Shown piece by piece: positions 41,160 through 61,549 of a stretch of DNA of 64,000 nt (positions within the stretch are counted from its first letter, which is position 1; each line of letters opens with the position of its first letter). The notes beneath the pieces are model-generated. The model searched no databases. It saw nothing but the letters and a program-made list of their open reading frames with translations, and was not told where the DNA came from. Both the position numbers and the translations under genes were made by a program. Source of the DNA: Gemmatimonadota bacterium (GTDB taxonomy: Bacteria; Gemmatimonadota; Gemmatimonadetes; Gemmatimonadales; Gemmatimonadaceae); assembly GCA_028287235.1 (NCBI GenBank), contig JAQBQB010000030.1, forward strand, positions 434,001-498,000, in the 5' to 3' direction.

Positions 41160-41355
41160 CTGCGGCCCGCGCAAAGTTAGTCGCGGGCGTTCGCGCGAAT
41201 GCGCGCGAACGGAACGCGAACCGGGCTCCGGCCGATCCAGCGCAGATCTTAGTAAACTGGTATGAGCAAACGAGATACGAGCGCGGCCGCGGCTGGACTG
41301 CGGCTTGCTTTTCCGTCGGGCGAACTCCCCTCCTCCCGCCCTCCGGAGAGCGCCC

Positions 41356-44300
41356 GTGTCCGTTCGTCTCCTCTCAGTGCTGTGCCGCTCTGCGCGCACC
41401 GTCGTTGTCCTTGCGCTGTGCATTCTGGCGCTTGCGCACTCACGGGCTGATGCCCAGAAGCCGCTCCTGGCCACCAGCGCAGCGCGCTTCACCAATGGGA
41501 ATGACGCGCGTGGGGTTCCCTACCTCCAGGTGCGGCTGAGCCTCAAGAACAACAGCACGGCGGTGTTGGGGCCACGCGTTCTCTCCTTCGACTGCCGTAG
41601 CTACGTCGCGTACGTCTACGACGCGGATGAAGGTTGGATCGCGACCGGCTGTCTCACATCCCTGGTCGGTCCAAACATCAACGCCGGCCAAACGGGGTGG
41701 TTGGACATCCGGCTCGCGCAATCCGATTTCATGAATGGCCAGGATACCGTCAAGGTGATTTTCGACGGTACGTGGGCGTCGCCTCCGGACACGGCCTACG
41801 TGGGCATCAACATGAACATTCAGTCCGCGGTCCTCCTTCGGCCGCCGATGCCCACGGTGACACCGAAACAGACCGCGATCACGGTGCCGTCATTGACCTC
41901 GCGGACCGAAACGTTCACGATCGCGAATCCGGGCAACGCGGCCGCCAGCTATTCGCTCGTCCCGAGCTGCGGGGCGTTCAGCGCGGCAGGATGCACCGCC
42001 TCCCCAACAACGATCACTATCGGGGCGAACAGCTCCGCGACCGCAACGGTCTCGTACCGAACGCCGGCGCTGAACGCGAGCACCGCGACGATCGGTCTCA
42101 GCGCGACGTATACGGCATCGGCGGCGCTCACCGACGCTGGAAGTATCGTCGTCACGACGGCCGATCAGATCGCGCCGACGATCGGCTTCGCACCGGGAGG
42201 CCCCCTCACGTCGTACGCCAGGGGATTCTCCGTCAGTTTCTGCGATGCCGACGGATCGTTGGGAACTCCCACCGTGACGTTGAACGGCGGCACTCTAGCG
42301 CCGTCCGCATACTATGCCGTTTCGTCGGCCGGCTGCGCCACCGCCACGCAGGCCGACTTTCCAAACGCGCCGATCCGTCCCGGCTCCAACAGCATCACCG
42401 CCGCCATCGGCGACGGCGTTCATACGACGTCGACGCCGTGGACGGTGGCCTATGACGAATCGACTGATTTCACGCCTCGGCTCACCGCACCGGCATCGAA
42501 GAACCTTTCGCCAGGCGGCAATTTCGCCGACGACTTCGTCGTTCAGAATCCGGGCACGACGACCGTCCTGTACCAGCTGACGCTGAGCTGCGGCAACTCG
42601 GGCGTCAGCGTCGTCGCGACCTGCTCCATGCCGGCGGGATCGATGTACGTGGCAGCCGGGCAGAGCGCGCCGGTGCACGTCTCGTACTCGACGGACGGCT
42701 TTGCCGGCACGAATGCGATACAGCTCACCGCTCGATATGCCACGTCGACGGGTGCCACGGTGTCCGGGTCCGCGGCCATGAACGTGACCGTTCAGCCGAC
42801 GTACACACCGTCGGTTTCACCGAAGACGAGTCAGACGGTAGGCGCGCTCTCGAGCCCATCGGTGAGCTTCTCGATCGTCAACAGCGGTACCGCGACGGGC
42901 ACGTTCACGCTCGCGGCGTCATGCGCGGGCGCGGTGAGCAACTGCGCGATGACCGGCCCCACCACGGAGACGATCACGGCCGGCGCCAGCGCATCCCGTG
43001 TGGTGAGCTTCACCGCGGGCGCTGCCGGCACTACGGGTACGATCAAGCTCGTGATGACGGCACCGCCGCGCACCTCGGGACTCGTCGAGGCCGACACCGG
43101 GCGCGTCGCGATTTCGTCGGTTGACCTCAATCCGCCTGGCGTCGCGTTCGTCCGCTCGGGCGCATCTCCCGACCCCGGCGATGGGACGTTCATCACGGTC
43201 TCGGCGCATTCAGTCGACATGAGAGTGGATGTCTGGGACTCCGACGGTGCGGTTGCCGCGCCAAGCGTGACGCTCAACGGCGCGACCCTGTCGCCGAGCT
43301 CCGTCGTGGTGACCAACGCGGGCTACAATAGCTCGAAATCGGCGTACTACACCCTCGTGTTCGCGCCAGGGAACAATCTTCTCGGGATTACCGCGTCGGA
43401 CGGTGTGCACTCGACCTACGTCGAGCAGCGCTACACCTACAACGAGGCGCCCGATCACAACGCCGCGATCACGCCGGCGCACGCAACGTCGACGTTCGCG
43501 ATCAACACAACCGCGACCGATTCGTTCTTCGTTCGAAATCCCGGGTGGAAAACGGTTCAATACTCACTCGGCCTCTCGTGCACGAGCGACTCCGGCGCCT
43601 GCACGGCGACCAGTCCGTCGGGCACGGCGATCTCCGTCGGCGCTGGCGCCACGGCCGTCGTGCGCGTGTCCTTTCCGATGGGCGGCACCGTCGGACAGAA
43701 TACGCGAGTATCGCTGAGCGCGACGTACGCCGGCGCGATGACGAGCGTGTCGTCGTCGAACGGCCTCGTGGCGTCAGTTGGTGCGCTCCTTCCCCCGTCG
43801 GTGACGCTGACCGCGTCTCCCGGCACGGCGGTCACGGCGTCGCCAATCAGCTTGGTGGCTGTCTGGTGCGATCCCGACGACGGTCTCACGCAGCACACAG
43901 TCACGTGGCAGGGAAGCGCGTTGGCCGACACCTACGTCGCGGAGACACGGGCCGGGTGCAAAACCGCCGGACGGTCGACATGGAACAACGTGTCGATCAA
44001 CCCGGGCGCGCAAACCGCGGTGGCAACCGTCGTCGACGCAGCCGGGCACACGGCAACGGCATCGACGACCGTGACGTTCACACCGCCGGTGACCGCGTAC
44101 AAGCCCGCCGTGACGCCCAAGTCAGCGCTCAGGAACGTGAACCGCGGCGCGGCGGAGTCCGAGACCTTCACCGTGCAAAACGCCGGCGTGTACTCCGCAG
44201 CGTACACGCTCACCGGTTCCTGCGGTTCGCTTCCGAACTGCGCGGTCAGCCCCGGGACGGTTTCGCTGGCACCAGGCGCGAGCGCGTCTGCAACCGTGAG

Positions 44301-47300
44301 CTTCACGGCGCCGAGCGTCTCCGGGGAGCTGGACACGATTCGGGTCATCGCGCGCTATACGGCGGCCTCGGGGGCCACGATCGCTGACACGGGTACGAAG
44401 TCGGTGCAGTACATCGAGACGACGTACACGCCGCTGGTCACTCCCAAGACGACGCAGACGATCGATGCATTGGGGAATGGCTCTCAGTATTTCTCGATCT
44501 ATAACAATGGAAACGCGGCTGCGACGTTCACGGTCGCCGCGAGTTGTGCGGGAAGCATCTCTGCCTGCACGTTGTCGGGCGGAACAACCGTCACCATCGA
44601 TCCCGGCCAGGTCGACGGACGCCTGGTGACGTTCACGGCCGGAGCGGCCGGCACTACGGGCACGGTCAGCCTCGTGGTCACCGCACCGCCGCGTGTGTCG
44701 CAGCTCGTGGAGGCTGATACCGGACACGTCGCGATCATCGCGGCCGATCTGTACGCGCCCGCCATCGCGATCACTCCTACCAACGATCCCGATCCCTCGA
44801 CGGGTGTCGCTGCGCCGGTATCGCTCACGGTACGCAATACCACGGTGACCGTCGACGTCTCCGACGTCGACGGCGTCGTGGGCAACCCGACGCTCACGAT
44901 GGCCGGCGCGACGATCGCGCCGAATTCCGTCGTCGCGACGAGCCTGAGCTACGCCAGCTCGAAGCGGGCCGTCTACACGCTGCCGTTCCAGCCAGGCAAC
45001 AACGACGTGACGGTCACCGTCTCCGACGGCGTACACACGTCGACCCTACAACAGCGATACGTCTACGACGACGGCATCGAGCACGCACCGCACATCGTGC
45101 CGCTTCACACCACCCCTGTGGTGCCGGTGGGCCGCACGGTCGTCGACACGTTCCTGGTTACGAATCAAGGATCGCACAGCGCGGCCTATACGGTGAGCGC
45201 CGGCTGCACATTTGACTTTCCTCATACGCCCGCGTGCGTGGCCAACACGTCTGCGCCGACGATCACCGTCGGCGCCGGTGCGACCGTGTCCGTGCCGGTC
45301 TCCTACACGACCGACCCGTTCGTGGGTCACCATCTCGACGTCGCTCTGACTGCGACCTACGCCGGATCGCTAAGCACGTGGCCTGCCACGCAGCAGTTCA
45401 CCGCGACCGTCGGCTCGATGTTGCCGCCGCAAGTCACGATCGCACCCGCCGGCGGCAGCACGGTCACATCATCGACGATCAACCTCGTAGTGTCGTGGTG
45501 CGACCCGGACGACGGATTGTCGCTGCGAACCGTCACCTGGCAGGGCCGGGTTCTCGACGACAACTGGCATCCGACCACGGTTGTGGGTTGCTTGACGTCC
45601 GGGCAATCGATCTGGAACAATCTCCCGATCGACCCGTGGGCACAGACCGCCGTCGTAAACGTCGTCGACGACGGGGGGCATGCGACCACGAGCACCGCGA
45701 CGATCACACGCGTCGCGCCGCTCAGTGTGCAACAGCCGAGCGTAACGCCGAAGAGCGGATCGCACAGTGTCCTGCCGAATGTGACCGCGACCGACACGTT
45801 CAGCGTGACGAACGCCGGTTCGTATGCGGCCGGCTATACGCTCACGCCGTCGTGCCGCGGAGTCGCGAACTGCGTGGCCAGTCCGAGCGTCTTGACGCTT
45901 GCAGCCGGTGCGAGTGCGCCGGTCGTCGTCAGCTATACAAGTCCGAGCGTGACCGGCGAGCGGGACACGATCCAGCTCATCGCGCAATTCACAGCGCCTA
46001 CGGGTGCGGTGATCGCCGATACGGGCAAGAAGACTGTGGTGGTACCGGCCCTAGAAGCGGCGCCGAACGTGACGACGCCCTCTACACCCGTGGTGCTCCC
46101 GCCGTCTTACCGAAGCACGGCTGGATTCAGCATCACGAATCCCGGAAGCGAATCGGTCACGTATGCGATCCACACCAACTCCACGGGCGGTTTCGCATTT
46201 CCCGACTGGTTCACTCCGCCACAGAGCGTGACGGTCGACGCCGGCCAGACCGCGTTCGTGACGTTATCCTTCGCGGCGCCGAACGTAGACGGGGTCCTCG
46301 GGTCGTTCACACTGACGGCCGACTACGTCTCTACCTCGGGCGTCACGCTGTCCGGCTCGGCGACGGCCATTCTCCAAACGCAATCGCCGCAGCCAAGAAT
46401 CGCCGTGACGCCGAAGACGAGCACGAAGGTCGTAGATGCCGGATTGACCACGACGCAGGTTGGGTTGTCCGTGACGAATACGGGCAACGTCTGGGTCGGG
46501 GGCCGGGCGACGGTCGCCTGTTCCTCCGCGTCCAGCGGAGTCATCGTACGCTGCGATCCGAGTCCGCTCCCCGGCGCGATCTCGCCATCGGATACGGGTA
46601 CCACCGTGTCACTCGGGGTGGGGCAGTCGGCAACCTTCCTGGTCGACGTGCAACTGCGCGCCGGTTTCCCGGGGCGCGTTCAACTCGCCTTTGACGGCGC
46701 GTCCGACGGCGCGCCCGGGATTGCCGTGCACGACACCGGCACGATCACGATTCGGCGCGCCGGGGACTATGTCGCGGTTGCCGTCTCGCCAAAGGCGGAA
46801 TCGCTGACCGTTCGCCCGGGGGGCACCGTCCTCCGGCGCTTCACGATCACGAACACGGGTACGATACCGGCCACGTTCTACTACGCAGCCGAGTGTACGG
46901 GCGCGGCAGTCTCCTGCGCGACGGTCACCGGATCGACCGGCGAGTTGCCGCCGAGTCTGGGATATCTCGTGAACGTCACGGCCGCCTCGCTGGGGATCGG
47001 TCAGGCCGGCGCGATCAGCGTGAGAGCGACGGACAGCACGGTCGCGGATACCGGCCGGGTCGCCGTCGTAACGGCGACGGTCGTGAATCTCGCCGTCGAC
47101 TCGCGCAGCACCAATCCGGGAACGAGCGTCGATCGAGGTTCGTGTCTGACGATCGCCGCCGGCGACGCTGCCGCGTACGAGTGCGGCGATCTGCGGCTCG
47201 TGCATCCGCTTCCCGCCACGACGACGATGAACAAGTCGCGGGCGCTGACGCTGGTGTACAACAGCCGGCACCATTCCGGCATCGCGCTCTTTGCCGCGGA

Positions 47301-50300
47301 TGTCACGGTCGGGGGAGGAAACGATGCAACGTCGCTGACCGCGCACGTCATCGTCGACGGCAAGGCGTCGGTCGATTCCACCTTCGCCTGGGATCCGCAG
47401 TGGAGCGATGGACACCCGCGACGCATCGTCGTGCCGGTGAACATTCGCGCCCTTGGACTACAGACCGGCGCGTACCACTACACGTTGGCGGTGGACGCGG
47501 TGTCGGGGCATTCGACGATCTCGCAGCAGGATACCGGGACGGTCGCGATCGTGAATCGCGCGACGAGTCCGTTTGGGCCGGGATGGTGGCTGGATGGGTT
47601 GGAGCAATTGGTGCCGTATTCGACAACGCAAATGCTGTGGGTGGGTGGAGATGGGAGCACGCGTCTGTACACTCGTTCGGTGACGGACACCATCTGGACG
47701 GTGACGCCGAGCGTGGACCGGCCGGATACTCTCATCGTCAACGCTGGAGTGGAATACCGCCGCCTGTTGCGCAACGGTGGTTTCGTCCGATTCAACAGCG
47801 GTCTGCAGCATACGGCGACCGTGAACGCTCATGGGGACTCGACGACCTTCGGGTACGCGGGTCCGGCCGGAATCGATCTGCGGACGATCATGCTTCCGGT
47901 TCCGGTGTCGGCGGGACGGACGGTCTCCTACAATTTCATTCACGACGGTCCGGCGAACAGCTTGAGCCAGGTCGTTGCACCCGCAGGCCCGTCGGGCCAG
48001 GTGCGACAGACGTGGTTGAAATATTCGACCACGCAAGCAAACGAGATCGCCCTTTTTCGCATTGTCGATCCCGACAGCTCGATCGTCGCCTTTGGATATG
48101 ACCTGCACGGACGGCTCGCGTCCCGGACGAATCGACGCCTACACCAGACGACGTACGAGTATGATGACGCCGGAGGCTTTCGTCGGAGCACGCTCGACAT
48201 GGCGGGAACGGCCACTACTTCGATCGTGCGGACCTTCTGTCCCGCCGAAACCGCGAGCTTGACCTCCTGCGCGTCCACTCCGTTCAGAAGTGATAGCCTG
48301 CGCACGTGGTACGACGGGCCGCGCGCCGACGGCGACACAACCTGGTTCTATCTCACGCGGTTCGGTTCTCCGCGAACGATCGTCGACGCGCTGCGCCACA
48401 CGACGCGCATCGAGCGGATGGACGCCAACTGGCCGGCGCTCGTCACGGCGGTCATCGACCCAATTGGCCACGAGATCCGGACCGCGTACGACTCGCGGCG
48501 CGGCCTCGCCGATTCCGTTACGGATGTCAACGGAAACAGCACCACTACCACGACCCAACCACCAAGCGTCACGCGCTACGAGTGGCATGCGAAGTGGGAT
48601 CGCGCAATCACGGTGACCTCGCCGGAGAGTGTCATCACGCATCGGGAGTACGATGTCGCGACCGGCGACCTGTCTAAGGAATATGTCGGGCCGAACCACG
48701 CGCGCCTCGTGAGGTACACCTACGATCCTGTCACGCGCCTTGTTCAAACGGTCACGACATTGCAGTCGGTGAATCCGACCGAGTATGGCTACGACGCCAT
48801 TGGAAATCTCAGTCGTACCACGACCCCGCGCGGATCCATCTCGACCATCGTCCGCGACGTGCTCGGACGTGACTCAGTTTCCAAAACGCCCATCGCCGGT
48901 GTGCCGGCTACGAGCTGGCGCTATCGAACCACCACCTACGACCTCATGGATCGTGTGCTGGTGTCCACCGATTCCGCGCGCACCACGGAGGCTGATCCGA
49001 CTCCCCAAACACTTCGCGTAGCCAACCTGTACGACGCGGAGGGCAATGTCGTTCAAGTCACGCGCACGGCATCTCCCGACTCGTTGCATCTCGGAGATCT
49101 GGTCCTCGGGGCGGAATACGATGCGGCCCACCGCAAGACCAGCGAATTCGATCCAAACCGGGCCACTTCACATGAGTGGAAGTACGATCCGGCAGGAAAC
49201 GCACTGACCACCAATCGAGGTGGCGACGTTGTCATCGCCGAATACAACGTGCTCAATCGGGTCTTCCACCGCACCGTTCGGGGGTCGATCAACCCGTTCA
49301 CGCCGCAGGCGGCGTCGGACGATCAGCGGTTCTGGTACGACGACGGCGGCCGCCTGGTTGTCGCGACCAACAACTTCGCTCAGGTCGGCCGTTCCTACTC
49401 GATCGGCGGACGCATGCTGACCGACACGCTGCGGATCGCGAACGCCGATCTCTCGACGCCGACGTTCAACCAGCACGTCTACGTCAATGGATATCGGTAC
49501 GATGCGGAGGGGCGCCGGATCGCGCTCACGCCACCGCCGGGGCTGAGTGTCCTGGGACCCGTCTCGTACGTGTACGACAACGTCACTGGCGACCTTAGTC
49601 AGCTCATCGTTCAAGGAGGCGGGACGTATCGGTACTTCTACAACGTTGCGGGACTGCTCGATTCCTTGGTGCAGGGGGACGGGAGCGTCGAGCGCCACAA
49701 GTACGATGAGGACGGCAGGGAGGTCGCTCGGTTCGAATTCAGCCCGGCGCTGAACAGTTACTTGCATGCAGACACCGTCGCGCTCGACGAGCGCGGAAAG
49801 CGACTGTCCGTCTCTCTCAGCAGCCTCGGTCGCACCTCGAACGAGTCGTACACCTACGACGGGATGGGCGGTGCGATCGCGACTACTGGCAAGACCATCG
49901 AAGGCACGCCGCGCGACGCTTTGGGTAACGCGCTGTTCCGAAGCAAGGTGGGAGACGATTTTACCGAGCATTATCAGTACGAGCCGCATTCCACGCGGTT
50001 GCATTATACCGCGCATCAACTCGGCGACGGAACAACGGTGGATTCGTTGTCGCAGTCTTACAACCTCGCGGGAGATCTCGCGAGATCGATCGAGCAGATC
50101 ACTGGCCCGCAGGTGTGCACGGCGAACCACGACGGACTCTCGGAGTGTCCGCCTGAGTTGCGGCGGGTTATCGCCTGGTCGCATCTCTTCAACCAGTACG
50201 ACGGCGACGGCCATCTCGTGCTGGCGACCAAAGAAACGACGAACGACGGCAGTCCAAACTGGTATCCGAGCGCCGTTCGCGATCCGAATGGGTTCGCGGT

Positions 50301-51486
50301 CTACGCGCCGTTCGAGCGCGGAGTGCTCGAGGAGTATCGCTACGACGCCTTGGGCCGTCGCGTCTGGGTGCGTGCCCATCGCAACGCGTATTGCCCGGGA
50401 GCCCGCGACCGCGATAGCACGACAGTGTGCATCAGCACCATCGAGCGCACGATCTACGACGGCGATCAGGTTCTCGCCGAGATCCGGCAGCCCGGCGACG
50501 ATACCACCTCTGTGGCCGTGCTCGAGTCAGACGGTCAGGCCGCGGGCCGGCCGATTCAGCACTTCGGTCAGGTTGGGTACGTACATGGCGAAGGAATCGA
50601 CCACCCGCTCGAGCTCGCGCGCAACTACGCTGGCGACGTCACACGGCTGGTGCTGCACTACCAGTGGCAGGGCGCGCTCGAGATCGGGACGACCCTGGGC
50701 GGCGCGTTGGTCCAGTGCGGACTAGTGGCGCCGGGGGCTGACTGTGAGGACATTGAGTGGCCGGGCGCGAAGATGACGTTCGGGATGGTGATTCAGCATC
50801 CGGCACTCGGACCTGCGAGCTGGTGGGGGACGATGGCTGGGAAGTCTGAGAATGCGACAGGGATGTTGGATATGCGGAACCGGCAGTACGACCCGCGGAC
50901 GGGGCGGTTTACGCAGGAAGATCCAATTGGGCTGGCCGGCGGGATGAATCTGTATGGGTTTGCCAGCGGAGATCCCGTTAACCATACCGATCCGTTTGGG
51001 CTAGCCCCTGAGGGCAAATGTCCGCCCGACTGTCGAGATATCACCGCTGACGAAGGCAATCGCATCGCCAACGCGGCGGAAGCGCAGGCAGCAGATTTCC
51101 AGTTGGCGAAGACGCCATACGTACTCGGGGGGTCAGGGAGCGGCGGCTCTGATTGCATTCATTTCTGCAAATCGGCCCAAGATCGAGCGGGCCTCACGGA
51201 GATACCGCTAACACAGAGTGGCACCTATGAGGGCAACCCGCACTTCAGGCCGATTTCCGTTGGAGAGGCTCGGCGCGGTGACATCCTCTGGCAGCCACGA
51301 GGTCGCAGTAACGGTCACGTGGGCATCTTTCTCGGTGATCGGAGTTCCAAAGGTGGGTTGCTTGGTGCCGCGATGGGAGACAATGGAGCGCGAACAACCA
51401 GCGTGTGGGGGCCGAAGTCCGCAGGTGGATGGTTCGCTGGGGGTGACAAACTGAAGGTCTATCGCCCGCTTATGTCTACGCCATAA
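41356..51486 (+). CDS. Giant RHS-repeat polymorphic toxin with NlpC/P60-like C-terminus
   Basis: The 3376-residue product begins at a GTG with a good GGAGAG site and has a Sec signal peptide (RTVVVLALCILALAHSRADA). Residues about 155-1900 hold roughly eleven Ig-like repeats that begin TPK/SPK... and contain NPG/NTG turns (e.g. TPKTSTKVVDAGLTTTQVGL); two of the larger blocks are tandem duplications about 1.6 kb apart. From about 1910 come YD repeats (YGYDAIGNLSRTTTPRGS) and the RHS end motif QYDPRTGRFTQEDPIGLAGG ... TDPFGL at 3216. The remaining 160 residues are a peptidase-like domain. Sec export plus RHS shell and variable C-terminus define a polymorphic-toxin design. Confidence 0.9.
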   Translation: MSVRLLSVLCRSARTVVVLALCILALAHSRADAQKPLLATSAARFTNGNDARGVPYLQVRLSLKNNSTAVLGPRVLSFDCRSYVAYVYDADEGWIATGCLTSLVGPNINAGQTGWLDIRLAQSDFMNGQDTVKVIFDGTWASPPDTAYVGINMNIQSAVLLRPPMPTVTPKQTAITVPSLTSRTETFTIANPGNAAASYSLVPSCGAFSAAGCTASPTTITIGANSSATATVSYRTPALNASTATIGLSATYTASAALTDAGSIVVTTADQIAPTIGFAPGGPLTSYARGFSVSFCDADGSLGTPTVTLNGGTLAPSAYYAVSSAGCATATQADFPNAPIRPGSNSITAAIGDGVHTTSTPWTVAYDESTDFTPRLTAPASKNLSPGGNFADDFVVQNPGTTTVLYQLTLSCGNSGVSVVATCSMPAGSMYVAAGQSAPVHVSYSTDGFAGTNAIQLTARYATSTGATVSGSAAMNVTVQPTYTPSVSPKTSQTVGALSSPSVSFSIVNSGTATGTFTLAASCAGAVSNCAMTGPTTETITAGASASRVVSFTAGAAGTTGTIKLVMTAPPRTSGLVEADTGRVAISSVDLNPPGVAFVRSGASPDPGDGTFITVSAHSVDMRVDVWDSDGAVAAPSVTLNGATLSPSSVVVTNAGYNSSKSAYYTLVFAPGNNLLGITASDGVHSTYVEQRYTYNEAPDHNAAITPAHATSTFAINTTATDSFFVRNPGWKTVQYSLGLSCTSDSGACTATSPSGTAISVGAGATAVVRVSFPMGGTVGQNTRVSLSATYAGAMTSVSSSNGLVASVGALLPPSVTLTASPGTAVTASPISLVAVWCDPDDGLTQHTVTWQGSALADTYVAETRAGCKTAGRSTWNNVSINPGAQTAVATVVDAAGHTATASTTVTFTPPVTAYKPAVTPKSALRNVNRGAAESETFTVQNAGVYSAAYTLTGSCGSLPNCAVSPGTVSLAPGASASATVSFTAPSVSGELDTIRVIARYTAASGATIADTGTKSVQYIETTYTPLVTPKTTQTIDALGNGSQYFSIYNNGNAAATFTVAASCAGSISACTLSGGTTVTIDPGQVDGRLVTFTAGAAGTTGTVSLVVTAPPRVSQLVEADTGHVAIIAADLYAPAIAITPTNDPDPSTGVAAPVSLTVRNTTVTVDVSDVDGVVGNPTLTMAGATIAPNSVVATSLSYASSKRAVYTLPFQPGNNDVTVTVSDGVHTSTLQQRYVYDDGIEHAPHIVPLHTTPVVPVGRTVVDTFLVTNQGSHSAAYTVSAGCTFDFPHTPACVANTSAPTITVGAGATVSVPVSYTTDPFVGHHLDVALTATYAGSLSTWPATQQFTATVGSMLPPQVTIAPAGGSTVTSSTINLVVSWCDPDDGLSLRTVTWQGRVLDDNWHPTTVVGCLTSGQSIWNNLPIDPWAQTAVVNVVDDGGHATTSTATITRVAPLSVQQPSVTPKSGSHSVLPNVTATDTFSVTNAGSYAAGYTLTPSCRGVANCVASPSVLTLAAGASAPVVVSYTSPSVTGERDTIQLIAQFTAPTGAVIADTGKKTVVVPALEAAPNVTTPSTPVVLPPSYRSTAGFSITNPGSESVTYAIHTNSTGGFAFPDWFTPPQSVTVDAGQTAFVTLSFAAPNVDGVLGSFTLTADYVSTSGVTLSGSATAILQTQSPQPRIAVTPKTSTKVVDAGLTTTQVGLSVTNTGNVWVGGRATVACSSASSGVIVRCDPSPLPGAISPSDTGTTVSLGVGQSATFLVDVQLRAGFPGRVQLAFDGASDGAPGIAVHDTGTITIRRAGDYVAVAVSPKAESLTVRPGGTVLRRFTITNTGTIPATFYYAAECTGAAVSCATVTGSTGELPPSLGYLVNVTAASLGIGQAGAISVRATDSTVADTGRVAVVTATVVNLAVDSRSTNPGTSVDRGSCLTIAAGDAAAYECGDLRLVHPLPATTTMNKSRALTLVYNSRHHSGIALFAADVTVGGGNDATSLTAHVIVDGKASVDSTFAWDPQWSDGHPRRIVVPVNIRALGLQTGAYHYTLAVDAVSGHSTISQQDTGTVAIVNRATSPFGPGWWLDGLEQLVPYSTTQMLWVGGDGSTRLYTRSVTDTIWTVTPSVDRPDTLIVNAGVEYRRLLRNGGFVRFNSGLQHTATVNAHGDSTTFGYAGPAGIDLRTIMLPVPVSAGRTVSYNFIHDGPANSLSQVVAPAGPSGQVRQTWLKYSTTQANEIALFRIVDPDSSIVAFGYDLHGRLASRTNRRLHQTTYEYDDAGGFRRSTLDMAGTATTSIVRTFCPAETASLTSCASTPFRSDSLRTWYDGPRADGDTTWFYLTRFGSPRTIVDALRHTTRIERMDANWPALVTAVIDPIGHEIRTAYDSRRGLADSVTDVNGNSTTTTTQPPSVTRYEWHAKWDRAITVTSPESVITHREYDVATGDLSKEYVGPNHARLVRYTYDPVTRLVQTVTTLQSVNPTEYGYDAIGNLSRTTTPRGSISTIVRDVLGRDSVSKTPIAGVPATSWRYRTTTYDLMDRVLVSTDSARTTEADPTPQTLRVANLYDAEGNVVQVTRTASPDSLHLGDLVLGAEYDAAHRKTSEFDPNRATSHEWKYDPAGNALTTNRGGDVVIAEYNVLNRVFHRTVRGSINPFTPQAASDDQRFWYDDGGRLVVATNNFAQVGRSYSIGGRMLTDTLRIANADLSTPTFNQHVYVNGYRYDAEGRRIALTPPPGLSVLGPVSYVYDNVTGDLSQLIVQGGGTYRYFYNVAGLLDSLVQGDGSVERHKYDEDGREVARFEFSPALNSYLHADTVALDERGKRLSVSLSSLGRTSNESYTYDGMGGAIATTGKTIEGTPRDALGNALFRSKVGDDFTEHYQYEPHSTRLHYTAHQLGDGTTVDSLSQSYNLAGDLARSIEQITGPQVCTANHDGLSECPPELRRVIAWSHLFNQYDGDGHLVLATKETTNDGSPNWYPSAVRDPNGFAVYAPFERGVLEEYRYDALGRRVWVRAHRNAYCPGARDRDSTTVCISTIERTIYDGDQVLAEIRQPGDDTTSVAVLESDGQAAGRPIQHFGQVGYVHGEGIDHPLELARNYAGDVTRLVLHYQWQGALEIGTTLGGALVQCGLVAPGADCEDIEWPGAKMTFGMVIQHPALGPASWWGTMAGKSENATGMLDMRNRQYDPRTGRFTQEDPIGLAGGMNLYGFASGDPVNHTDPFGLAPEGKCPPDCRDITADEGNRIANAAEAQAADFQLAKTPYVLGGSGSGGSDCIHFCKSAQDRAGLTEIPLTQSGTYEGNPHFRPISVGEARRGDILWQPRGRSNGHVGIFLGDRSSKGGLLGAAMGDNGARTTSVWGPKSAGGWFAGGDKLKVYRPLMSTP
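51004..51486 (+). other. C-terminal NlpC/P60-like toxin domain of the RHS protein
   Basis: After the DPFGL boundary the domain has YVLGGSGSGGSDCIHFCKSA and, 54 residues later, RRGDILWQPRGRSNGHVGIF. The catalytic cysteine would be C3267 and histidine H3321, the order and spacing of NlpC/P60 (CHAP-like) peptidases that cut peptide bonds of peptidoglycan. A third polar residue is not obvious. The short N-terminal sequence CPPDCRDITADEGNRI is a linker. Domain identification from motif spacing only. Confidence 0.7.
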
Positions 51487-51515
51487 CCGATGTCGCAAAG
51501 GCTAGGTTCAAGAAC

Positions 51516-52103
51516 ATGAAGACAAAATTTCTAATACTTCTGTTGGCAGTCGCTTGCGCTCGTAGTCGCGATCGCGCTGACACATCGCAGGCTGCTCGCG
51601 GCTCGGATAGCGTGCTTCCGAAAACGAACGTATCGGCCACGCCTTCGGGGATAGACAGCGCAGCCGCTGTACGCCTCGTGGAGGAATATGCTCAACGCGA
51701 TGCCAGTGGGGAGCGTCTTGCCTCAAGTGACTGGTTCAAGGACGCGATTACGGAGCCTGACCACGAGCCTGGCTACGATAGCTTCACTGCGATAAGTCGA
51801 TACCAGGTTCAGCCGGGGCGTCGAACGGGTGACACGCTTGAGGTGCCGGTCGTTTACGACGTTATCGGCGAGTTGGAGCAGGTCGTGGTGCAGGACAAGA
51901 CGACTGGATTGCGGCTCGTCTCTCGCGGTACGACGGAACGGACGGTATTCCCCGTCATCCGTTCGCCGGATGGGAAGCTCCGAATTGTGTCGCCGCAAAT
52001 CGACCAACATGTGTTGGCGGCGGCGATCCTCACGAACCAACGCTTGCCTGCGTTACGAGAGCCGGATCGAGAGAAGCTCAAAGCCTCTGCCAAGTCACGC
52101 TAG
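51516..52103 (+). CDS. Small lipoprotein, candidate immunity protein
   Basis: The 195-residue product has a lipoprotein signal (MKTKFLILLLAVACARSR, lipobox AVAC) and a folded domain that may be NTF2-like (DSAAAVRLVEEYAQRDASGE RL, then ISRYQVQPGRRTGDTLEVPV VYDVIGELEQVVVQ). It starts 29 nt after the RHS toxin gene on the same strand and is followed by a terminator, so both form one unit. A lipid-anchored immunity protein facing the periplasm is the right location for protection against a peptidoglycan-cutting toxin. This role is inferred from position. Confidence 0.65.
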   Translation: MKTKFLILLLAVACARSRDRADTSQAARGSDSVLPKTNVSATPSGIDSAAAVRLVEEYAQRDASGERLASSDWFKDAITEPDHEPGYDSFTAISRYQVQPGRRTGDTLEVPVVYDVIGELEQVVVQDKTTGLRLVSRGTTERTVFPVIRSPDGKLRIVSPQIDQHVLAAAILTNQRLPALREPDREKLKASAKSR

Positions 52104-52285
52104 TGGTGGCGGCAGAGCCGAAGCTGGGTACAATATTTGGCCTCTACGAGGGCCAACCCGCGTAGCTGATATCGGTATCGTGGATTGAGAAGGTGGCTGG
52201 GAGTGCCGGTGTGCTCGATTCTCAGGTGGAAGGTCATCGGCTGGCGACGCCTCCTCCGGATCATGCGGGAGCTCCACCAACGCCT

Positions 52286-53267: not shown

Positions 53268-53807
53268 ATGAAAATGCCTCTTGCGGTTTTTACCGCTATA
53301 TCGGCGGCTGCATCGCCTGGTCGAGTAAGCGGCGCGATCGTGTTGCCGGAGCCGTGCTATGCCGCCGTCACGGTGATTCGTGCCGAGGCAAAGCCGTACG
53401 CGATCAAGCGAGTCGTCACGACCGGTGTACGCCGGTACGACGATGCTGGCGGCGGGTCGATATCGGTTTGCACGCCGGCCAACGGCAAACAATTTGATGC
53501 GGCGCGTGCAGAGGTCGAAAAGCGTGTTCAAACGCCCGCGATCACCGGCGAGATCGAACACGTCATCGTGAAGAGCACATCGGCTGTGATCGTAATGGAT
53601 CACATCCGCGCCATCGTTGCAAAGGCCGAAACGACGCCCGGCGACTTCCGCGCCGTTGAGGTAGTGATCCTCAAGGCGCCCGATGGGAAGGAGCTCGACG
53701 AGACCGCGCTCCCGCGTTTGCTGAAGTCGGAAAGCGCGCGGGCATCTTGCTTGGCCGACAACGCAGCGCTGAAACAAACCAATGCGCCGTTCCACTGGGC
53801 ATGCTAA
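53268..53807 (+). CDS. Exported protein, first gene of the T2SS operon
   Basis: The 179-residue product starts KMPLAVFTAISAAASPGRVS, a possible weak signal peptide, and then a soluble domain (VIRAEAKPYAIKRVVTTGVR, EIEHVIVKSTSAVIVMDHIR) not recognised. The ATG at 53268 follows no clear ribosome-binding site. Its stop overlaps the sigma-like gene by 7 nt (ATGCTAA), so it is coupled to the operon. Confidence 0.55.
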   Translation: MKMPLAVFTAISAAASPGRVSGAIVLPEPCYAAVTVIRAEAKPYAIKRVVTTGVRRYDDAGGGSISVCTPANGKQFDAARAEVEKRVQTPAITGEIEHVIVKSTSAVIVMDHIRAIVAKAETTPGDFRAVEVVILKAPDGKELDETALPRLLKSESARASCLADNAALKQTNAPFHWAC

Positions 53808-54520
53808 GTCTCGCAGCATTGCGCCCGGTCTCGGACGCCGATCTGATTGTTGCCATGCGAGAAGGAAGTAGCGACGCGTGCAACGAGTTCGTGACGCGAT
53901 TCCGTCCGATTCTCGAGAGCTATGCGCGGCGCGTCCGTATTCCTCCTTGGGACGCAACGGGCTGTATCCAAGACATCCTCAGCGATGAAGCACTCCGATT
54001 CGCGAACAATGGCATCACCATCCCAGCCAGCCTGCCGGCATACCTCATCCGCGCTCTGCGAAACCGATATCTCAACGTCAAGCGGGCGGCGAGCTGCCGC
54101 GAGCGTCACCACGCGGCAGCGTCCGACAGGTGGACTGGCGAGTGGGTCGTGACCTCCTTGTGCTCGGAGGCCGCGTTGCGCTCGAGCGCAGGACTGGAGG
54201 AGTCTGCGGTGCGGCAGTTGTCAGTTCTCGAGCGTCTAGCCACAGAGTTGCGTGCCGGCCTCACCGATGAGGAGCACTCAATCCTGATGTGGATTAGCCA
54301 AGGCGCCTCGCATCGTGAAATCAGCGCCTGGCTCGCCGTATCATACGAAGCAACGTCGAAGCGAATTTGGCGCCTGTGCCGCCGGTTGCGGGCCCAGGCC
54401 ACGGATCGGGCTGAGTCGTACGAGGTTTCCGAGCGCGCGGAAGTAGAGCGCTTCTTACGGCGGGTAAGCGTGCCGTTGGTTACGGAGGGGAAGGCAGTTG
54501 CGAGTGGGGGAGCGCGATGA
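53801..54520 (+). CDS. ECF-like RNA polymerase sigma factor
   Basis: The 239-residue product has a region 2-like segment (ADLIVAMREGSSDACNEFVT RFRPILESYARR, DATGCIQDILSDEALRFAN, LPAYLIRALRNRYLNVKRA) and a region 4-like helix-turn-helix (LTDEEHSILMWISQGASHRE ISAWLAVSYEATSKRIWRL). It is divergent from standard ECF factors. It overlaps the gene before it and the gspE start (ATGA), so it is translated with the secretion genes and may drive them. Confidence 0.75.
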   Translation: MLSLAALRPVSDADLIVAMREGSSDACNEFVTRFRPILESYARRVRIPPWDATGCIQDILSDEALRFANNGITIPASLPAYLIRALRNRYLNVKRAASCRERHHAAASDRWTGEWVVTSLCSEAALRSSAGLEESAVRQLSVLERLATELRAGLTDEEHSILMWISQGASHREISAWLAVSYEATSKRIWRLCRRLRAQATDRAESYEVSERAEVERFLRRVSVPLVTEGKAVASGGAR

Positions 54521-55995
54521 CTGCCGCGTTCGTGGCCGAGCCGCTAGTAACGTTGGCCGCGGGACTCACTCGCGATTTCCTTCTTCACCATCGGGTGTGT
54601 CCGAAAGCATTTGCCGCTGACGGGACGCTTATCGTCGCCGTTACGGAGGATGCGCTGATCGCTGGCGCGGACGACGTCGCCTTTGCGTATCAACGCGCGA
54701 TTTCCTTAGAAGTAGTATCGCGCGACGAGGTCGAGCGCTTGGTCGAGCGACTGACGACCAGGGCAGAGCGAACCGTCGAGTTGGCCCGCATCGATTCCAG
54801 TATAGACGACCTGGCCACTGACGTGCGCGATCTGGCAAATCAGCCGCCGGTAATCAGATACGTGAATTTGCTCGTGCGGGACGCGTACGACGCGGGAGCG
54901 AGCGACATTCACCTGGAGGCGACGCGCACTGGGCTCGCAGCGCGGTTTCGAGTCGACGGAGTTCTCGTCCCAGCGCCTGAGCCTCCGAGTCAGCTGCACC
55001 ACGCCGTCGTTTCACGGATCAAGCTCTTAGCCGAACTGGATATTGCCGAGCGCCGCCGACCGCAAGATGGTCGGATACGCGTCCGTCTCGAAGCGCGAGA
55101 GCTAGACCTTCGCGTATCAACGATTCCAACAATGTTCGGCGAAAGCGTGGTACTCCGCCTTCTCGATCATGGGGGCCGCGCCGTCACGCTCGATGAGCTC
55201 GGGATGTCGGCGCGCGTGCTCAATATCATGGCACAGTTGTCGGCTCGCCCGGACGGAATGTTGCTCGTGACCGGCCCCACCGGAAGCGGCAAGACTACAA
55301 CGCTGTATGGAGCGCTTCAGCGGCGCGATGCACACACCGAGAAGATCATTACAGTCGAAGATCCGATCGAGTACCAGTTGCCCGGTATTACGCAGATGCC
55401 GGTGCACCGTCAGGCGGGAGTGACATTCGGTGGTGCGTTGCGAGCGATTCTGCGCCAGGACCCCGACGTGGTCATGATCGGTGAAATGCGGGATCAGGAG
55501 ACGGCAGAGATTTCCGTGCAAGCGGCGATGACCGGCCACTTAGTCTTTAGCACTCTACATACGAACGACGCCGTCAGCGCCATTCCGCGACTGCTCGACT
55601 TAGGCATTCCCGACTATCTCGTCTCGGCGACGCTCGAGGGCGTACTTGCTCAGCGCTTGGTTCGGCGGATCTGCGACGATTGCCGCGTCGAATACGAGCC
55701 GAGCCCGGAGACAGTTGCCGCTGTGGCGGGCCGGCCGATTGGACGCCTGACGCTCCTGAGGGGCACCGGATGTCCGGCGTGCCGTGGCACCGGCTTCCGT
55801 GGGAGGCTCGGAATTTTCGAGTTGCTGGCCGTTACCGATGATCTCCGCGATGCGATCGCCGCCCGAGCGTCGCGGGCGCAACTGAGAATGTTGGCCGTGG
55901 AGGCCGGGCTCGTTCCGCTCCGCTCTGACGGCTGGCAAAAGGTGGAATCTGGCCTCACAACCGTAGAGGAGGTCGCTCGTGTCGTCCAGAACTAG
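54517..55995 (+). CDS. gspE: Type II secretion ATPase GspE
   Basis: The 492-residue product is a secretion ATPase of normal length: Walker A GPTGSGKT (residues 253-260), the Asp box EDPIEYQLPGITQ, Walker B DPDVVMIGEMRD, and the zinc-binding pair CDDC (386-389) and CPAC (419-422) of GspE/PilB. It drives pseudopilus assembly from the cytoplasm. GspG starts inside its last 17 nt. Confidence 0.96.
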   Translation: MTAAFVAEPLVTLAAGLTRDFLLHHRVCPKAFAADGTLIVAVTEDALIAGADDVAFAYQRAISLEVVSRDEVERLVERLTTRAERTVELARIDSSIDDLATDVRDLANQPPVIRYVNLLVRDAYDAGASDIHLEATRTGLAARFRVDGVLVPAPEPPSQLHHAVVSRIKLLAELDIAERRRPQDGRIRVRLEARELDLRVSTIPTMFGESVVLRLLDHGGRAVTLDELGMSARVLNIMAQLSARPDGMLLVTGPTGSGKTTTLYGALQRRDAHTEKIITVEDPIEYQLPGITQMPVHRQAGVTFGGALRAILRQDPDVVMIGEMRDQETAEISVQAAMTGHLVFSTLHTNDAVSAIPRLLDLGIPDYLVSATLEGVLAQRLVRRICDDCRVEYEPSPETVAAVAGRPIGRLTLLRGTGCPACRGTGFRGRLGIFELLAVTDDLRDAIAARASRAQLRMLAVEAGLVPLRSDGWQKVESGLTTVEEVARVVQN

Positions 55996-56458
55996 CTATC
56001 GCCGGCGCATCAGGCGCGCAGAGATACCGCGCGGTTTCACGCTCATCGAGTTGCTCGTAACAATTGCGATCATCGCGACTCTCGCCGCCATCGTGGCCCC
56101 ATCGCTGTTCGGGAATATCGGAGACGCGCGACACAACACCGCCAAGAGCCAGATTCAAATCCTCTCGCTTGCGCTGGATGCCTATCGTCTCGATAACGAG
56201 GCATTCCCGACGACGGAGCAAGGGATTGAGTCGTTGCGCACGGTGCCCATTACCGGCAATCCGCCGCCGAACTGGAAGGGACCGTACCTACGCCAACTCG
56301 TGCCGCTTGACCCTTGGGGCAGGCCATACGTGTACGTCGCGCCCGGGCTGTCCAACCCGAACTCGTACGACCTGTACTCGCTTGGCAAGGACGGTCGCCC
56401 TGGCGGAGATGGCGAGGATGCGGACATCACCTCCTGGAACGGACCCGTCCGTCAATAG
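55979..56458 (+). CDS. gspG: Major pseudopilin GspG
   Basis: The 159-residue product has the prepilin peptidase site RGFTLIELLVTIAIIATLAA (cleavage after G; F+1, E+5) and the GspG C-terminal features: PTTEQGIESLRTVP, YLRQLVPLDPWGRPYVYVAP and the calcium-binding end YDLYSLGKDGRPGGDGEDAD I. It is the main component of the pseudopilus. GTG start, overlapping gspE. Confidence 0.96.
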   Translation: MSSRTSYRRRIRRAEIPRGFTLIELLVTIAIIATLAAIVAPSLFGNIGDARHNTAKSQIQILSLALDAYRLDNEAFPTTEQGIESLRTVPITGNPPPNWKGPYLRQLVPLDPWGRPYVYVAPGLSNPNSYDLYSLGKDGRPGGDGEDADITSWNGPVRQ

Positions 56459-56467
56459 CAGAGCCTC

Positions 56468-57658
56468 ATGCAATCGGTATTTGCCTTTCGCGCCGCGGAC
56501 GGGAGCGGACGTATCAACGAAGGTCTCGTCGATGCCGAGACGAGCGAGCAAGCGCGCGTGATTCTGGTCACGCGAGGACTTTACGTGCTTGCGCTCGAGG
56601 ACAAAGGACCCCGACGTTCGCGCCGGGAGCCCCTGTCTGCCGCGGATCTGGCGCTCGGCCTGCGGATACTCGGGGATCTGCTGGAGTCTGGCCTCCCAGT
56701 CGGCCGTGCACTTCATGCGTTCGAGGATCTCGCACCGAAGGGTTGGCGCATCGCCCTTCCACAGATCAGGCAATCAATTCGAGAAGGCCAAGGCCTCGCT
56801 GCAGCACTGGCCGATGCTCCAATCGAAATCTCCCCGCTGGTAATTGGGATTGCCCAGGCTGGTGAGGCCGGCGGTGCCATCGCGCCGGCGATTCGTCGCG
56901 CTGCCGATCTTACCGAAGCCTCGGCAGAAACTCAGGCCGCCGTCCGCGCCGCTCTCGCGTACCCCGCTGTGGTTGCGCTGGCCGGTGTCCTGGCCATTAC
57001 CGTGCTCATTACGGTAGTGCTTCCGCGCTTCGCCAAGATTCTATTAGATCTTGGTCAAACACTACCTGCTTCGACGCGTTTGGTGATCCAACTGTCGACA
57101 GGCGCGCGCGCGCTGTTGATCCCCACCTTGGTTGCCGGAAGCGCCGCAATGCTGGCTTGGCGCTCGTGGACAACCACCGCGAACGGCCGACGGCAGTGGC
57201 ATCGGACACTGTTGTCGATTCCTGTAGTCGGATCAGTCCGTCGTTCGTTCGCGATCGCCCGGATGGCGCACTCCCTCGGTGCACTTCTCGAGAGCGGGAT
57301 TACGATCGCAGCCGCACTCCTTTTCGCCGCCCGAGCGACGGCCGACGGAGAACTCGAATCCCGGATTCTGGACGCGCGCTCGAGCGTGATGGCTGGTCAA
57401 AGCCTTTCGCACGCGTTGGAGGCTACCGCCGCCACGACGCAAACGACCGTTCGGCTCATTCGCGCCGGTGAAGAATCGGGTAGGCTGCCCTCGATGTTGT
57501 CACATGCCGCGAGAATCGAGCAGCAGCGGGCCGACCGAATCGTGCGCGCGGCCGTTCGCATGCTCGAGCCAACCCTTCTGTTGACATTTGCCTCGGTCGT
57601 TGCGCTCGTTGCGGCTGCGCTCCTCCAAGCGATCTACAGCGTTCGACCCACGACGTGA
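56468..57658 (+). CDS. gspF: Type II secretion inner-membrane protein GspF
   Basis: The 396-residue product has the two T2SSF repeats (DLALGLRILGDLLESGLPVG RALHAF; MAHSLGALLESGITIAAALL FAARA) and three membrane helices (VVALAGVLAITVLITVVLPR; the last LLLTFASVVALVAAALLQAI Y). It is the polytopic platform protein under the pseudopilus. Its stop overlaps the next gene (ATGA-type, GTGATC). Confidence 0.95.
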   Translation: MQSVFAFRAADGSGRINEGLVDAETSEQARVILVTRGLYVLALEDKGPRRSRREPLSAADLALGLRILGDLLESGLPVGRALHAFEDLAPKGWRIALPQIRQSIREGQGLAAALADAPIEISPLVIGIAQAGEAGGAIAPAIRRAADLTEASAETQAAVRAALAYPAVVALAGVLAITVLITVVLPRFAKILLDLGQTLPASTRLVIQLSTGARALLIPTLVAGSAAMLAWRSWTTTANGRRQWHRTLLSIPVVGSVRRSFAIARMAHSLGALLESGITIAAALLFAARATADGELESRILDARSSVMAGQSLSHALEATAATTQTTVRLIRAGEESGRLPSMLSHAARIEQQRADRIVRAAVRMLEPTLLLTFASVVALVAAALLQAIYSVRPTT

Positions 57659-58838: not shown

Positions 58839-59760
58839 CACACGAGTACGCGAACGCCGCGGCTTCACGATGCTCACGATGCTATGGATTATGAGCGTTG
58901 CCTCAGTGGCGGCAATGACCGCCGCGCTAGCGGGGCGCAACACTGTTGATGCTGGACGCAATCGCGTGGAGCTCGAGCGTGCATATTGGAAAGCGACTGG
59001 TTGTGCGCGCCGCGCCCAGGCCGCGATCGACGAAGAGCTCACCGCATCGCCCTCCATCGAGGGTGTCAACGCAGCCTGGCGAACGTTGCAATCGTCCGTG
59101 CCCGCATCGACGCTCCTTACAGGCTGTGATGTCGCTCTCGAGGCGGCCGGCACGCGTATCGATCTCAATGCGGCGACGGACGAAATGATCACGAACCTTG
59201 CCACAATGCTCGGGTACGGAGCTGGCGCCGCCGAAATGGCCGCTGCGCTCCACGACTGGATCGACCCCGACGACAGTCTGAGCGCAGGCGGTGCAGAACA
59301 GGCCTGGTACCAGCAGGCCCGGAGGTTACTACCACGAAACGCGCCGCTCGCCGATTCGCGCGAGCTCTCGCGGGTTCGCGGATTCGAAGATTTTTCGCCG
59401 TTCGATTCACTCGTCTCAGTTGAACCCGGCCGCGTGTCGCTCGCCACCGCGTCCGCTACCGTGCTGACGGCCTTGCCTGGAATCACATCCGAGCTCGCAG
59501 ACGCGATCGTTGTACGCCAGCAGGCGGGGGCGCCGGTGGCGGAACTGTCCGACGTTCTCGGGAGCGTGTCCCGCGCCTCCGCGGATGCTTTGGCCTCCCG
59601 GTATCCGGACGCCGTTCGCTTGACGACGCCGGACCCAGACGCGTGGGTCGTTCGGTCGACCGCAGTGTCCGGATTGCGCCCGAGTAAAGTTGTCTTGCAG
59701 TGGCGTCTTGCGCGTCTCGGTCGGCGGGCGATAGTGGTTCAAACGAGGACCATTCAGTGA
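58831..59760 (+). CDS. Minor pseudopilin GspK-like
   Basis: The 309-residue product has the prepilin helix RGFTMLTMLWIMSVASVAAM, but without the usual E+5 (L/T there), as in GspK proteins, and a long C-terminal part with helix-hairpin-helix-like turns (VLTALPGITSELADAIVVRQ QAGAPV). GspK forms the tip and this size is right. GTG start, overlapping the gspJ-like stop by 8 nt. Confidence 0.85.
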   Translation: MSSTRVRERRGFTMLTMLWIMSVASVAAMTAALAGRNTVDAGRNRVELERAYWKATGCARRAQAAIDEELTASPSIEGVNAAWRTLQSSVPASTLLTGCDVALEAAGTRIDLNAATDEMITNLATMLGYGAGAAEMAAALHDWIDPDDSLSAGGAEQAWYQQARRLLPRNAPLADSRELSRVRGFEDFSPFDSLVSVEPGRVSLATASATVLTALPGITSELADAIVVRQQAGAPVAELSDVLGSVSRASADALASRYPDAVRLTTPDPDAWVVRSTAVSGLRPSKVVLQWRLARLGRRAIVVQTRTIQ

Positions 59761-60959
59761 GGGCTCGTTTCGGTATCGAAATCGGCTCAACGGCCGTCCG
59801 GGCCGTCATGATCCGCTCGGGAGCAGTACTTTGGCATACGGAAGTAGGTATTTCGGGCGCGGTTCCGCTTCGCGACATCGTGGAATCGCTTCTCGCCGCC
59901 GCTCCACGACACGGCTTCTTGCCGCCGATAGTCGGGATCGCACTCGGACCCTCGAGAACGCAGATCAAGCGGCTAGACGGCTTGCCGCAACTCGAGTCGT
60001 TGAGTGTCATGACGCAGTTGCTGCGAGAGCATGCCAGTGCCGTATTCCTGCGCACGGCTGGCACTCTGGTGATTCCCGAAGTTTACCGTTCCGGTGACGG
60101 AACACTGTGGGGAGCAGCCCTCGATCGCGCGATCGCGGACGACGCGGTATTCGCAGTTCAGCGCGCACGACTCCGCGTGACAACGGTGGTTCCAACCATC
60201 TCCGCTGTCGCGCAACTATATCCATCTGCCGTCGTTTGCGTGTCCGACGAAGCGGACCACTTTGAGCTGACGACCGAGCGAAGTGCGCCGCAGTCAATTC
60301 GGCGATTGGCGCTTCAAGGCGCCGCGCCGGCGATTCCCGCTCAGCTGAGGGGAATCGACGGCGACGCGGGCGCGTTCATCGGTGCGTACGCCGCAGCGAT
60401 CGCGACACGAAAGTCTCCATTTAGTTGGAGGCCTGAGGTGACAGCAGCACATGCGGCAATGGCACGTCGGGCGCAAGTCGCCGGAATCGCTGTGTCGCTA
60501 GGGCTTGCATGCGTCGCTGCCGTGACCGCCCCGGCCGCTCGGGCAGCAGTATTCGTCCGTCAAGCCAGAGGTGTGGCCGTCAGCACTCGCGAAATGGAGT
60601 TGGAAGCGGCGCGAGCCGAGGCGGAGCTCCGACGTACCACCCAACTCCTCGAGACGGTTCGTATCTTTGACGCAAATCGAGGACAGATCACTCAACTCCT
60701 CGGACAGCTCAGCCGCTCCATTCCTGAGTCAACGGCGATAGTGACGTTCCGCGTCGACTCTATAGAAGGCAGCTTCGTTGCGATCGCGCCGCATGTGACC
60801 GATTTGCTTCCTGAGATTGGCGCGGTCGAGGAAGTGGCCGGCGCACGGATCGTCGGTTCCGTCACCCGTGAAACGGTGGCTGGCGTCCGCCTAGAACGCG
60901 CGGCATTTCGGTTCCGGCGATCACGCCCGTCCGTCGCTCCATTAGGCGGGCACCGATGA
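59757..60959 (+). CDS. GspL/PilM-like inner-membrane platform protein
   Basis: The 400-residue product has an actin-like fold at the N-terminus (FGIEIGSTAVRAVMI) and one membrane helix near residue 250 (VAGIAVSLGLACVAAVTAPA), followed by a periplasmic part with a coiled-coil (LEAARAEAELRRTTQLLETV). This is GspL, or the PilM/PilN pair fused. It links GspE to the inner-membrane complex. GTG start coupled to the gspK-like stop. Confidence 0.82.
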   Translation: MRARFGIEIGSTAVRAVMIRSGAVLWHTEVGISGAVPLRDIVESLLAAAPRHGFLPPIVGIALGPSRTQIKRLDGLPQLESLSVMTQLLREHASAVFLRTAGTLVIPEVYRSGDGTLWGAALDRAIADDAVFAVQRARLRVTTVVPTISAVAQLYPSAVVCVSDEADHFELTTERSAPQSIRRLALQGAAPAIPAQLRGIDGDAGAFIGAYAAAIATRKSPFSWRPEVTAAHAAMARRAQVAGIAVSLGLACVAAVTAPAARAAVFVRQARGVAVSTREMELEAARAEAELRRTTQLLETVRIFDANRGQITQLLGQLSRSIPESTAIVTFRVDSIEGSFVAIAPHVTDLLPEIGAVEEVAGARIVGSVTRETVAGVRLERAAFRFRRSRPSVAPLGGHR

Positions 60960-61549
60960 ACGGCGGACTCGGGCTACGTTCGCGAGACAGACGCACTCTC
61001 ATCGTCGGCACGGTTGCAGTTGGGACGCTCATGCTGATATCGCGAGGCGGTCCAGCATATCGCGCGTGGGAAGACGTGCGGCGGACCGAGGCTTCGGTGC
61101 TCACCGATCGAATCGCCTTCGCGAATCGATCGTCGCGCGAATTGCCTGCGCTTCGCGACAGTCTCCGTGTGAGGCGCATGCGTTTTGCCGCCATAGACTC
61201 GTCGCTGATCGGAGGCAATTCGCCCGCGGCTGCCGCGGCGAACCTGGCGTCCGCGGTGGAGGATTTCGCCGACGACGCACCAATGAGGATCAGCGCGTTG
61301 CAGATTCACGCCGACACTGCGGCGCGCCCGGGTCTGTCACGAGTCGCGGTTCGAATGACGGCGGTTGCAGACGTGGCGGGGCTGGCAGCGTTTCTACGCG
61401 CGGTCGACGGCGGAGTGCGGCACCTCGCGGTTCGAGAGCTTGCCATCTCGCAAGCCGAGCCGGCAGCTCCGGACTCGAAGCCGGAGATGCTGCGCATCGA
61501 CGTGTTGATCGAGGGCCTTGCTCAAATTGTGCCGAGCGTTGTGCGATGA
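60956..61549 (+). CDS. GspM-like (PilO-like) protein
   Basis: The 197-residue product has one N-terminal membrane helix (RTLIVGTVAVGTLMLISRGG) and a periplasmic domain with a ferredoxin-like alternation (LSRVAVRMTAVADVAGLAAF LRAVDGGVRHLAVRELAIS). Size, topology and position mark GspM. ATG overlaps the gspL-like stop. Confidence 0.78.
   Translation: MNGGLGLRSRDRRTLIVGTVAVGTLMLISRGGPAYRAWEDVRRTEASVLTDRIAFANRSSRELPALRDSLRVRRMRFAAIDSSLIGGNSPAAAAANLASAVEDFADDAPMRISALQIHADTAARPGLSRVAVRMTAVADVAGLAAFLRAVDGGVRHLAVRELAISQAEPAAPDSKPEMLRIDVLIEGLAQIVPSVVR

Follow-up and report, generated by a model that had tools for sequence, protein, structure and literature searches.

A predicted RHS toxin with an NlpC/P60 tip, a candidate lipoprotein immunity gene and a linked type II secretion operon in a Gemmatimonadota genome

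The window, which is the whole stretch of 64,000 nucleotides (nt) that was analysed, is part of contig JAQBQB010000030.1 of a bacterium affiliated with the Gemmatimonadaceae (Gemmatimonadota). It carries a giant RHS gene (41356..51486), a lipoprotein gene (51516..52103) and an operon for a type II secretion system (T2SS) that starts at 53.3 kb and continues to the end of the window. All genes of this locus are on the plus strand. The product of the RHS gene is very probably a polymorphic toxin. Its variable end domain (the tip), the lipoprotein and the T2SS are candidates for a peptidoglycan-cutting enzyme, an immunity protein and an exporter, respectively.

The RHS gene and its variable tip

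The RHS reading frame is uninterrupted from a TTG at 41305 to the stop codon at 51486. The GTG at 41356 is the best choice for the start codon because a GGAG motif is located 7 nt upstream and the product is an RHS protein of 3376 amino acids (aa). The protein starts with a putative Sec signal peptide (41356..41454; TVVVLALCILALAHSRADA before QK), read from the sequence and clear by eye. By inspection, the N terminus RLLSVLCRSARTVVVLALCILALAHSRADA, followed by Q, has a charged n-region, a hydrophobic core and the cleavage motif ADA before Q. Signal-peptide-like segments also open related RHS shells. The stalk (41848..47000, approximate boundaries) consists of immunoglobulin (Ig)-like repeats of the HYDIN/CFA65 type; one repeat matched the family PF22544 with E=7e-25. 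Ten repeats were counted by a strict motif and eleven by eye. The YD/RHS shell (47100..51006, start approximate) closes with the core motif DPFGL. Matches to TIGR03696 (E=1e-16) and PF05593 both exceed the cut-off, and a simple pattern detected seven YD motifs. These results bear out the original prediction of a 3376-residue frame with about eleven Ig-like repeats and YD repeats and, by inspection, a Sec signal peptide.

A PAAR domain was not matched in the RHS protein (Pfam, E<=0.1); the N terminus is signal-peptide-like instead. Both features argue against delivery by a type VI secretion system (T6SS) in the manner of PAAR-RHS effectors, and this explanation is very improbable. It would draw on a strong VipB/TssC homologue in the genome (C8:23991-24890, L156), where a T6SS or a similar contractile system may thus be present too. 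This VipB gene and the RHS gene are on separate contigs, however, and no T6SS gene was seen beside the latter.

The tip (51007..51483) is almost certainly a genuine NlpC/P60 peptidase domain. It matched PF00877 with E=2.4e-8 and 34.3 bits, above the cut-off of 23. The original prediction had described a 160-residue end domain with Cys3267 (51154-51156) and His3321 (51316-51318) at NlpC/P60 spacing. Both residues are located as described, and the length is 159 residues. The order, Cys before His, is canonical and non-permuted, and both residues are kept in the homologous tips of the genomes G083 and G029. In contrast to this peptidase-type order, a permuted, lipid-acting order has been described for Tox-Act1 and TseH (PMC12994826). 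Sequence matches among solved structures were wall hydrolases such as CwlO, Spr and MepS. The AlphaFold model, built from three sequences only, had a predicted local distance difference test score (pLDDT) of 66 and a predicted template modelling score (pTM) of 0.68. A fold search with this model placed MepS and Spr at the top and the T6SS amidase effector Tse1 lower (E=0.013). A check for a cysteine-peptidase fold in the C-terminal domain had been proposed; sequence and model agree on the NlpC/P60 fold. By its family, the tip probably cuts peptidoglycan in rivals.

Related shells carry different tips. The earlier proposal to compare relatives for variable tips beside a constant shell was answered by the sister species G003 and G004 of the same genus: their shells are 36-44% identical to that of the window, the tips are unrelated and the downstream genes differ where they are readable. 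The G+C content is 60% in the tip, 59% in the lipoprotein gene and 65% in the shell. The lower values of tip and lipoprotein are as expected of a swapped cassette, and together with the unrelated tips on related shells they are a signature of exchangeable toxin-immunity cassettes. The tip family is present in 3/395 genomes of the phylum sample: the two homologues are in G029, a genome of the same family as the source genome, where the tip ends an RHS frame cut off near the contig end, and in G083, of the same order, where it is attached to an RHS frame of 1427 residues. A further contig scan with the tip gave only this known pair. Most other NlpC/P60 matches in relatives have the appearance of common wall hydrolases and were not considered further. 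A series of short RHS-tip cassettes was observed around T2SS operons in G027:C2 (L116, L124), with a small gene behind most of them; it resembles a reservoir of interchangeable tips.

The fold of the tip also allows a reading without a weapon. The RHS protein would be a giant surface protein with an NlpC/P60 end that remodels the own wall, and the lipoprotein would be its regulator or adaptor, comparable to NlpI for MepS. Housekeeping hydrolases of the wall are indeed the closest solved folds, and one of these structures is a complex that includes a lipoprotein adaptor. A housekeeping enzyme is expected to be conserved, whereas the tips on related shells are mutually unrelated and differ between sister species. 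With the tip family restricted to three genomes of the phylum sample, a role in the own wall is very improbable.

The lipoprotein gene behind the tip

The lipoprotein gene starts with the ATG at 51516, 29 nt downstream of the RHS stop codon, and encodes 195 aa with a lipobox-like AVAC. This small lipoprotein had been predicted correctly. The strong terminator claimed behind it was not recovered: a scan found no intrinsic terminator, no T-run accompanies the hairpin at about 52137-52155, and the stretch has a folding z-score of only -1.5. No match to known families, including immunity families, was obtained in Pfam (E<=0.1) or NCBIfam (E<=0.01), and an ordinary named family was rejected. The model of the lipoprotein had low confidence (pLDDT 55) and resembled NTF2-like folds (best E=0.003), which is only a hint of such a fold. 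The survey of Zhang et al. 2012 (PMC3482391) includes an NTF2-like family among its immunity proteins.

The lipoprotein is rare. A single-sequence search of 98 relatives retrieved the lipoprotein itself only, and a two-row profile over the 395 genomes added two relatives, in G245 and G366. The lipoprotein or a homologue is present in four of the 395 genomes: in two of them it directly follows a homologous NlpC tip, and in one it is part of an array downstream of another RHS gene. The concern that it might be a common gene without RHS was thereby answered, with three RHS-linked cases. In G029, which represents another genus, a related lipoprotein gene is situated at most 14 nt behind the homologous tip. 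It scored 20.1 bits against a profile built without it, and the best of 429 scored shuffles reached 6.0 bits. In G083, a lipoprotein of an unrelated family is encoded 24 nt behind the tip; a relationship to the window lipoprotein was rejected at 0.2 bits. Hence all three NlpC tips have a lipoprotein less than 30 nt downstream, from two unrelated families. In G366, a tandem-duplicated homologue is part of a row of four lipoprotein genes, the other three being of another family. This row (L148 5759-9311, G366:C23) directly follows an RHS gene whose tip is metallopeptidase-like, and it looks like an immunity array.

The pairing with tips makes it quite probable that the lipoprotein is the immunity protein. 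Alternatively, it may be an unrelated neighbour, with immunity provided by something else. The homologue in G245, which is not next to an RHS gene, and the lack of a Pfam or NCBIfam family would fit this view. Against it, another genus shows the same adjacency with a homologous tip, and the RHS-linked lipoprotein array contains a homologue; an unrelated neighbour is improbable.

Lipoproteins are not limited to NlpC tips. Some tips of the JAB and metallopeptidase types also have a lipoprotein downstream; behind most others, the encoded protein has no evident lipobox. Small lipoproteins encoded behind JAB-like tips (L116 near 15944; L131 near 16956) recall the pairing of Tox-JAB-1 and Imm65.

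The T2SS operon and its linkage to RHS genes

The T2SS operon, which the original prediction had left unmentioned, is complete with gspE, G, F, H-J, K, L, M, a C-like gene and D. A sigma-factor-like gene precedes it and a sigma-54 activator follows. The linkage of RHS and T2SS genes was studied in 27 related RHS loci of Gemmatimonadota with flanking DNA, and a T2SS operon within about 20 kb was taken as linked. Such an operon was found near 11 of the 27 loci, with a random-position estimate of 0.37; owing to kinship, the loci are not independent samples and the probability value is not to be taken literally. The linkage was present in several genera and three families. In the window, the RHS and lipoprotein genes are upstream of the T2SS operon. 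The genes for GspD, the sigma-54 activator and RHS have one direction in G003, G018, G025, G034 and G066, and the RHS gene is divergent from the operon in G021, G027, G066, G070 and G245. The repeated linkage in several arrangements argues for a function. The genome G003 has a closely related T2SS operon (GspE 84%) with an RHS gene of 3287 codons about 140 nt downstream. Every genome with a gspG at least 62% identical to that of the window also has an RHS shell. The presence of gspG in general tracks RHS modestly (13/19 versus 9/30 genomes, p=0.017), because other T2SS subtypes exist.

The genomic linkage makes it rather likely that the T2SS exports the RHS toxin. An alternative keeps toxin and immunity and releases the adjoining T2SS from this role: the RHS and T2SS genes would have a genomic island or a regulator in common, and the RHS protein would leave by the second T2SS of the genome or another route, or stay surface-bound after Sec export. 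In favour of this, the linkage is not universal. The genome has a second T2SS (C1:254613-265101; L087, L088) with a GspE of 84% identity, no RHS gene alongside and a neighbourhood shared with G004. The locus is also at a synteny break. In the four sister genomes G002, G003, G004 and G005, a different gene follows the upstream amino acid permease, with the closest homologue here on another contig; the window locus is thus at a rearrangement or insertion. On the other hand, the occurrence of the linkage across genera and families and in several arrangements, including RHS genes directly behind gspD and the sigma-54 activator, speaks for function over hitch-hiking. A T2SS that is not the exporter is unlikely.

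In a wider sense, the specific T2SS subtype, the sigma-54 activator and RHS toxins may form one unit, a dedicated weapons locus in Gemmatimonadota. The T2SS would be devoted to antibacterial polymorphic toxins, and periplasm-acting tips would have lipoprotein immunity. This generalisation is tentative and has slightly less than an even chance.

The operon is preceded by a gene for a small protein (53340..53807), which may start at 53226. A copy with 50% identity precedes the second T2SS of the genome, and the product is possibly a T2SS accessory protein. The sigma-factor-like regulator (53801..54520) overlaps gspE by 4 nt. Its match to PF04542 is weak (E=0.002, below the cut-off), and a 55% identical gene is at the same place in G003. 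The ATPase gene gspE (54517..55995; PF00437, E=8e-127) is followed by gspG for the major pseudopilin (55979..56458; PF08334, E=1e-36) and gspF (56468..57658; PF00482, E=1e-37). The minor pseudopilins H, I and J are encoded at 57655-57957, 57947-58309 and 58323-58838; H and J have the N_methyl domain PF07963 and I was assigned by position. Further downstream are gspK (58870..59760; PF21687, E=1e-10), a gspL-like gene (59808..60959, position only), gspM (60956..61549; PF10741, E=1e-9) and a small gspC-like gene (61843..62037, position only), whose orthologues are longer with about 161 aa. The secretin gene gspD (62046..63605; PF00263, E=5e-45) overlaps the gene of the sigma-54 activator (63602..64000; PF00158, E=6e-38), which has 347 aa and runs past the window end. 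A sigma-54-type promoter was rejected: the sole pattern match in the window, at 38959, is at chance level and far upstream. Elsewhere in the window, a large protein of 892 aa (20771-23449) is preceded by a small gene for 114 aa (20419-20763). In G003, the pair is present several times in the surroundings of one RHS locus (C29).

Proposed mechanism and comparison with known systems

The locus is best explained by an antibacterial RHS toxin that is exported by Sec and T2SS, cuts peptidoglycan and is accompanied by a periplasm-facing lipoprotein immunity. We assign a probability of about 0.62 to this reading. From the domains, the variable tip, the pairing of tip and lipoprotein and the RHS-T2SS linkage, we infer the killing, the substrate, the binding of the immunity protein and the export by the T2SS. 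The giant RHS shell with its Sec signal peptide would cross the inner membrane by Sec and the outer membrane via the T2SS encoded at the same locus. The shell, held by the Ig stalk at the surface or at a distance from it, would shield the tip. In the periplasm of a neighbour, the tip may be released or presented, and its Cys3267-His3321 pair would cut the peptidoglycan. The producer and its kin would be spared by the periplasm-anchored lipoprotein, which is predicted to bind and block the tip. The original prediction of a Sec-exported, peptidoglycan-cutting weapon with immunity on the periplasmic side gains support from the NlpC/P60 fold and the rare, RHS-linked lipoprotein.

Several observations weigh against this explanation. 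RHS loci that are not beside a T2SS outnumber the linked ones (16/27), hence the linkage is not obligatory, and kinship among the loci affects the linkage statistics as stated above. The second T2SS has no RHS gene, so the window T2SS could serve other cargo. The lipoprotein relative in G245 has no RHS gene alongside. The G029 lipoprotein is only weakly similar in pairwise comparison: BLASTP gave no alignment and phmmer E=0.002-0.007 at Z=10,000. The tip model is of moderate quality. The PF00877 alignment stops short of the third catalytic residue of the tip, and there is no His at the usual spacing.

The outer-membrane crossing of Sec-dependent RHS toxins in bacteria with two membranes is mostly assumed rather than shown. 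A T2SS physically linked to RHS toxins across a phylum makes this export question directly testable. If T2SS subtype, sigma-54 activator and RHS toxins do form one unit, a machine usually regarded as an exporter of enzymes would here be dedicated to antibacterial polymorphic toxins. A simple rule is proposed: periplasm-acting tips travel with a lipoprotein immunity.

Tse1 is a small stand-alone T6SS effector without an RHS shell or signal peptide. The Tse1/Tsi1 system of amidase and immunity protein (PDB 4fgi) uses an NlpC/P60-like peptidoglycan amidase against rivals, as proposed for the window pair, with a fold match to the tip.

The original prediction had regarded the Sec-dependent RHS design as a departure from the common layout. 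This design is not unusual, since the survey of Zhang et al. has Sec-dependent RHS toxins as its most prevalent route (PMC3482391). The survey assigns these toxins to 'T2SS/Sec' with the signal peptide as sole signature and without signature neighbourhood genes, and it notes bacterial Ig domains adjacent to RHS repeats (PMC3482391). The window toxin shares RHS repeats and a variable C-terminal domain of the NlpC/P60 type with the Sec/T2SS toxins, and its downstream candidate immunity gene and putative signal peptide correspond to theirs. For Tox-NLPC/P60, the survey predicts cell wall degradation, names T6SS, PVC and TcdB/TcaC as routes and lists no immunity protein (PMC3482391); the lipoprotein is an immunity candidate for this class. 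The window locus differs from the Tox-NLPC/P60 and Sec/T2SS toxins of the survey in its lipoprotein partner and in the T2SS operon linked to it. The only lipoprotein immunity family in the survey is Imm65, paired with Tox-JAB-1 (PMC3482391). It is lipobox-anchored, as is the window lipoprotein, and the toxins differ.

The RHS bacteriocin Bcn-A of Xanthomonas perforans is a toxin with an immunity gene, as proposed for the window, and its activity is lost without the T2SS secretin gene xpsD (PMC7259588). Bcn-A differs in its size of 1398 aa; in the passages considered, no Ig stalk is described and no T2SS genes are reported alongside (PMC7259588). A literature search, with most subscription journals outside its coverage, found no study that connects RHS toxins with T2SS operons in this phylum. 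All parts of the locus belong to known kinds; what appears to be new is the linkage of T2SS and RHS genes and the lipoprotein that accompanies an NlpC tip.
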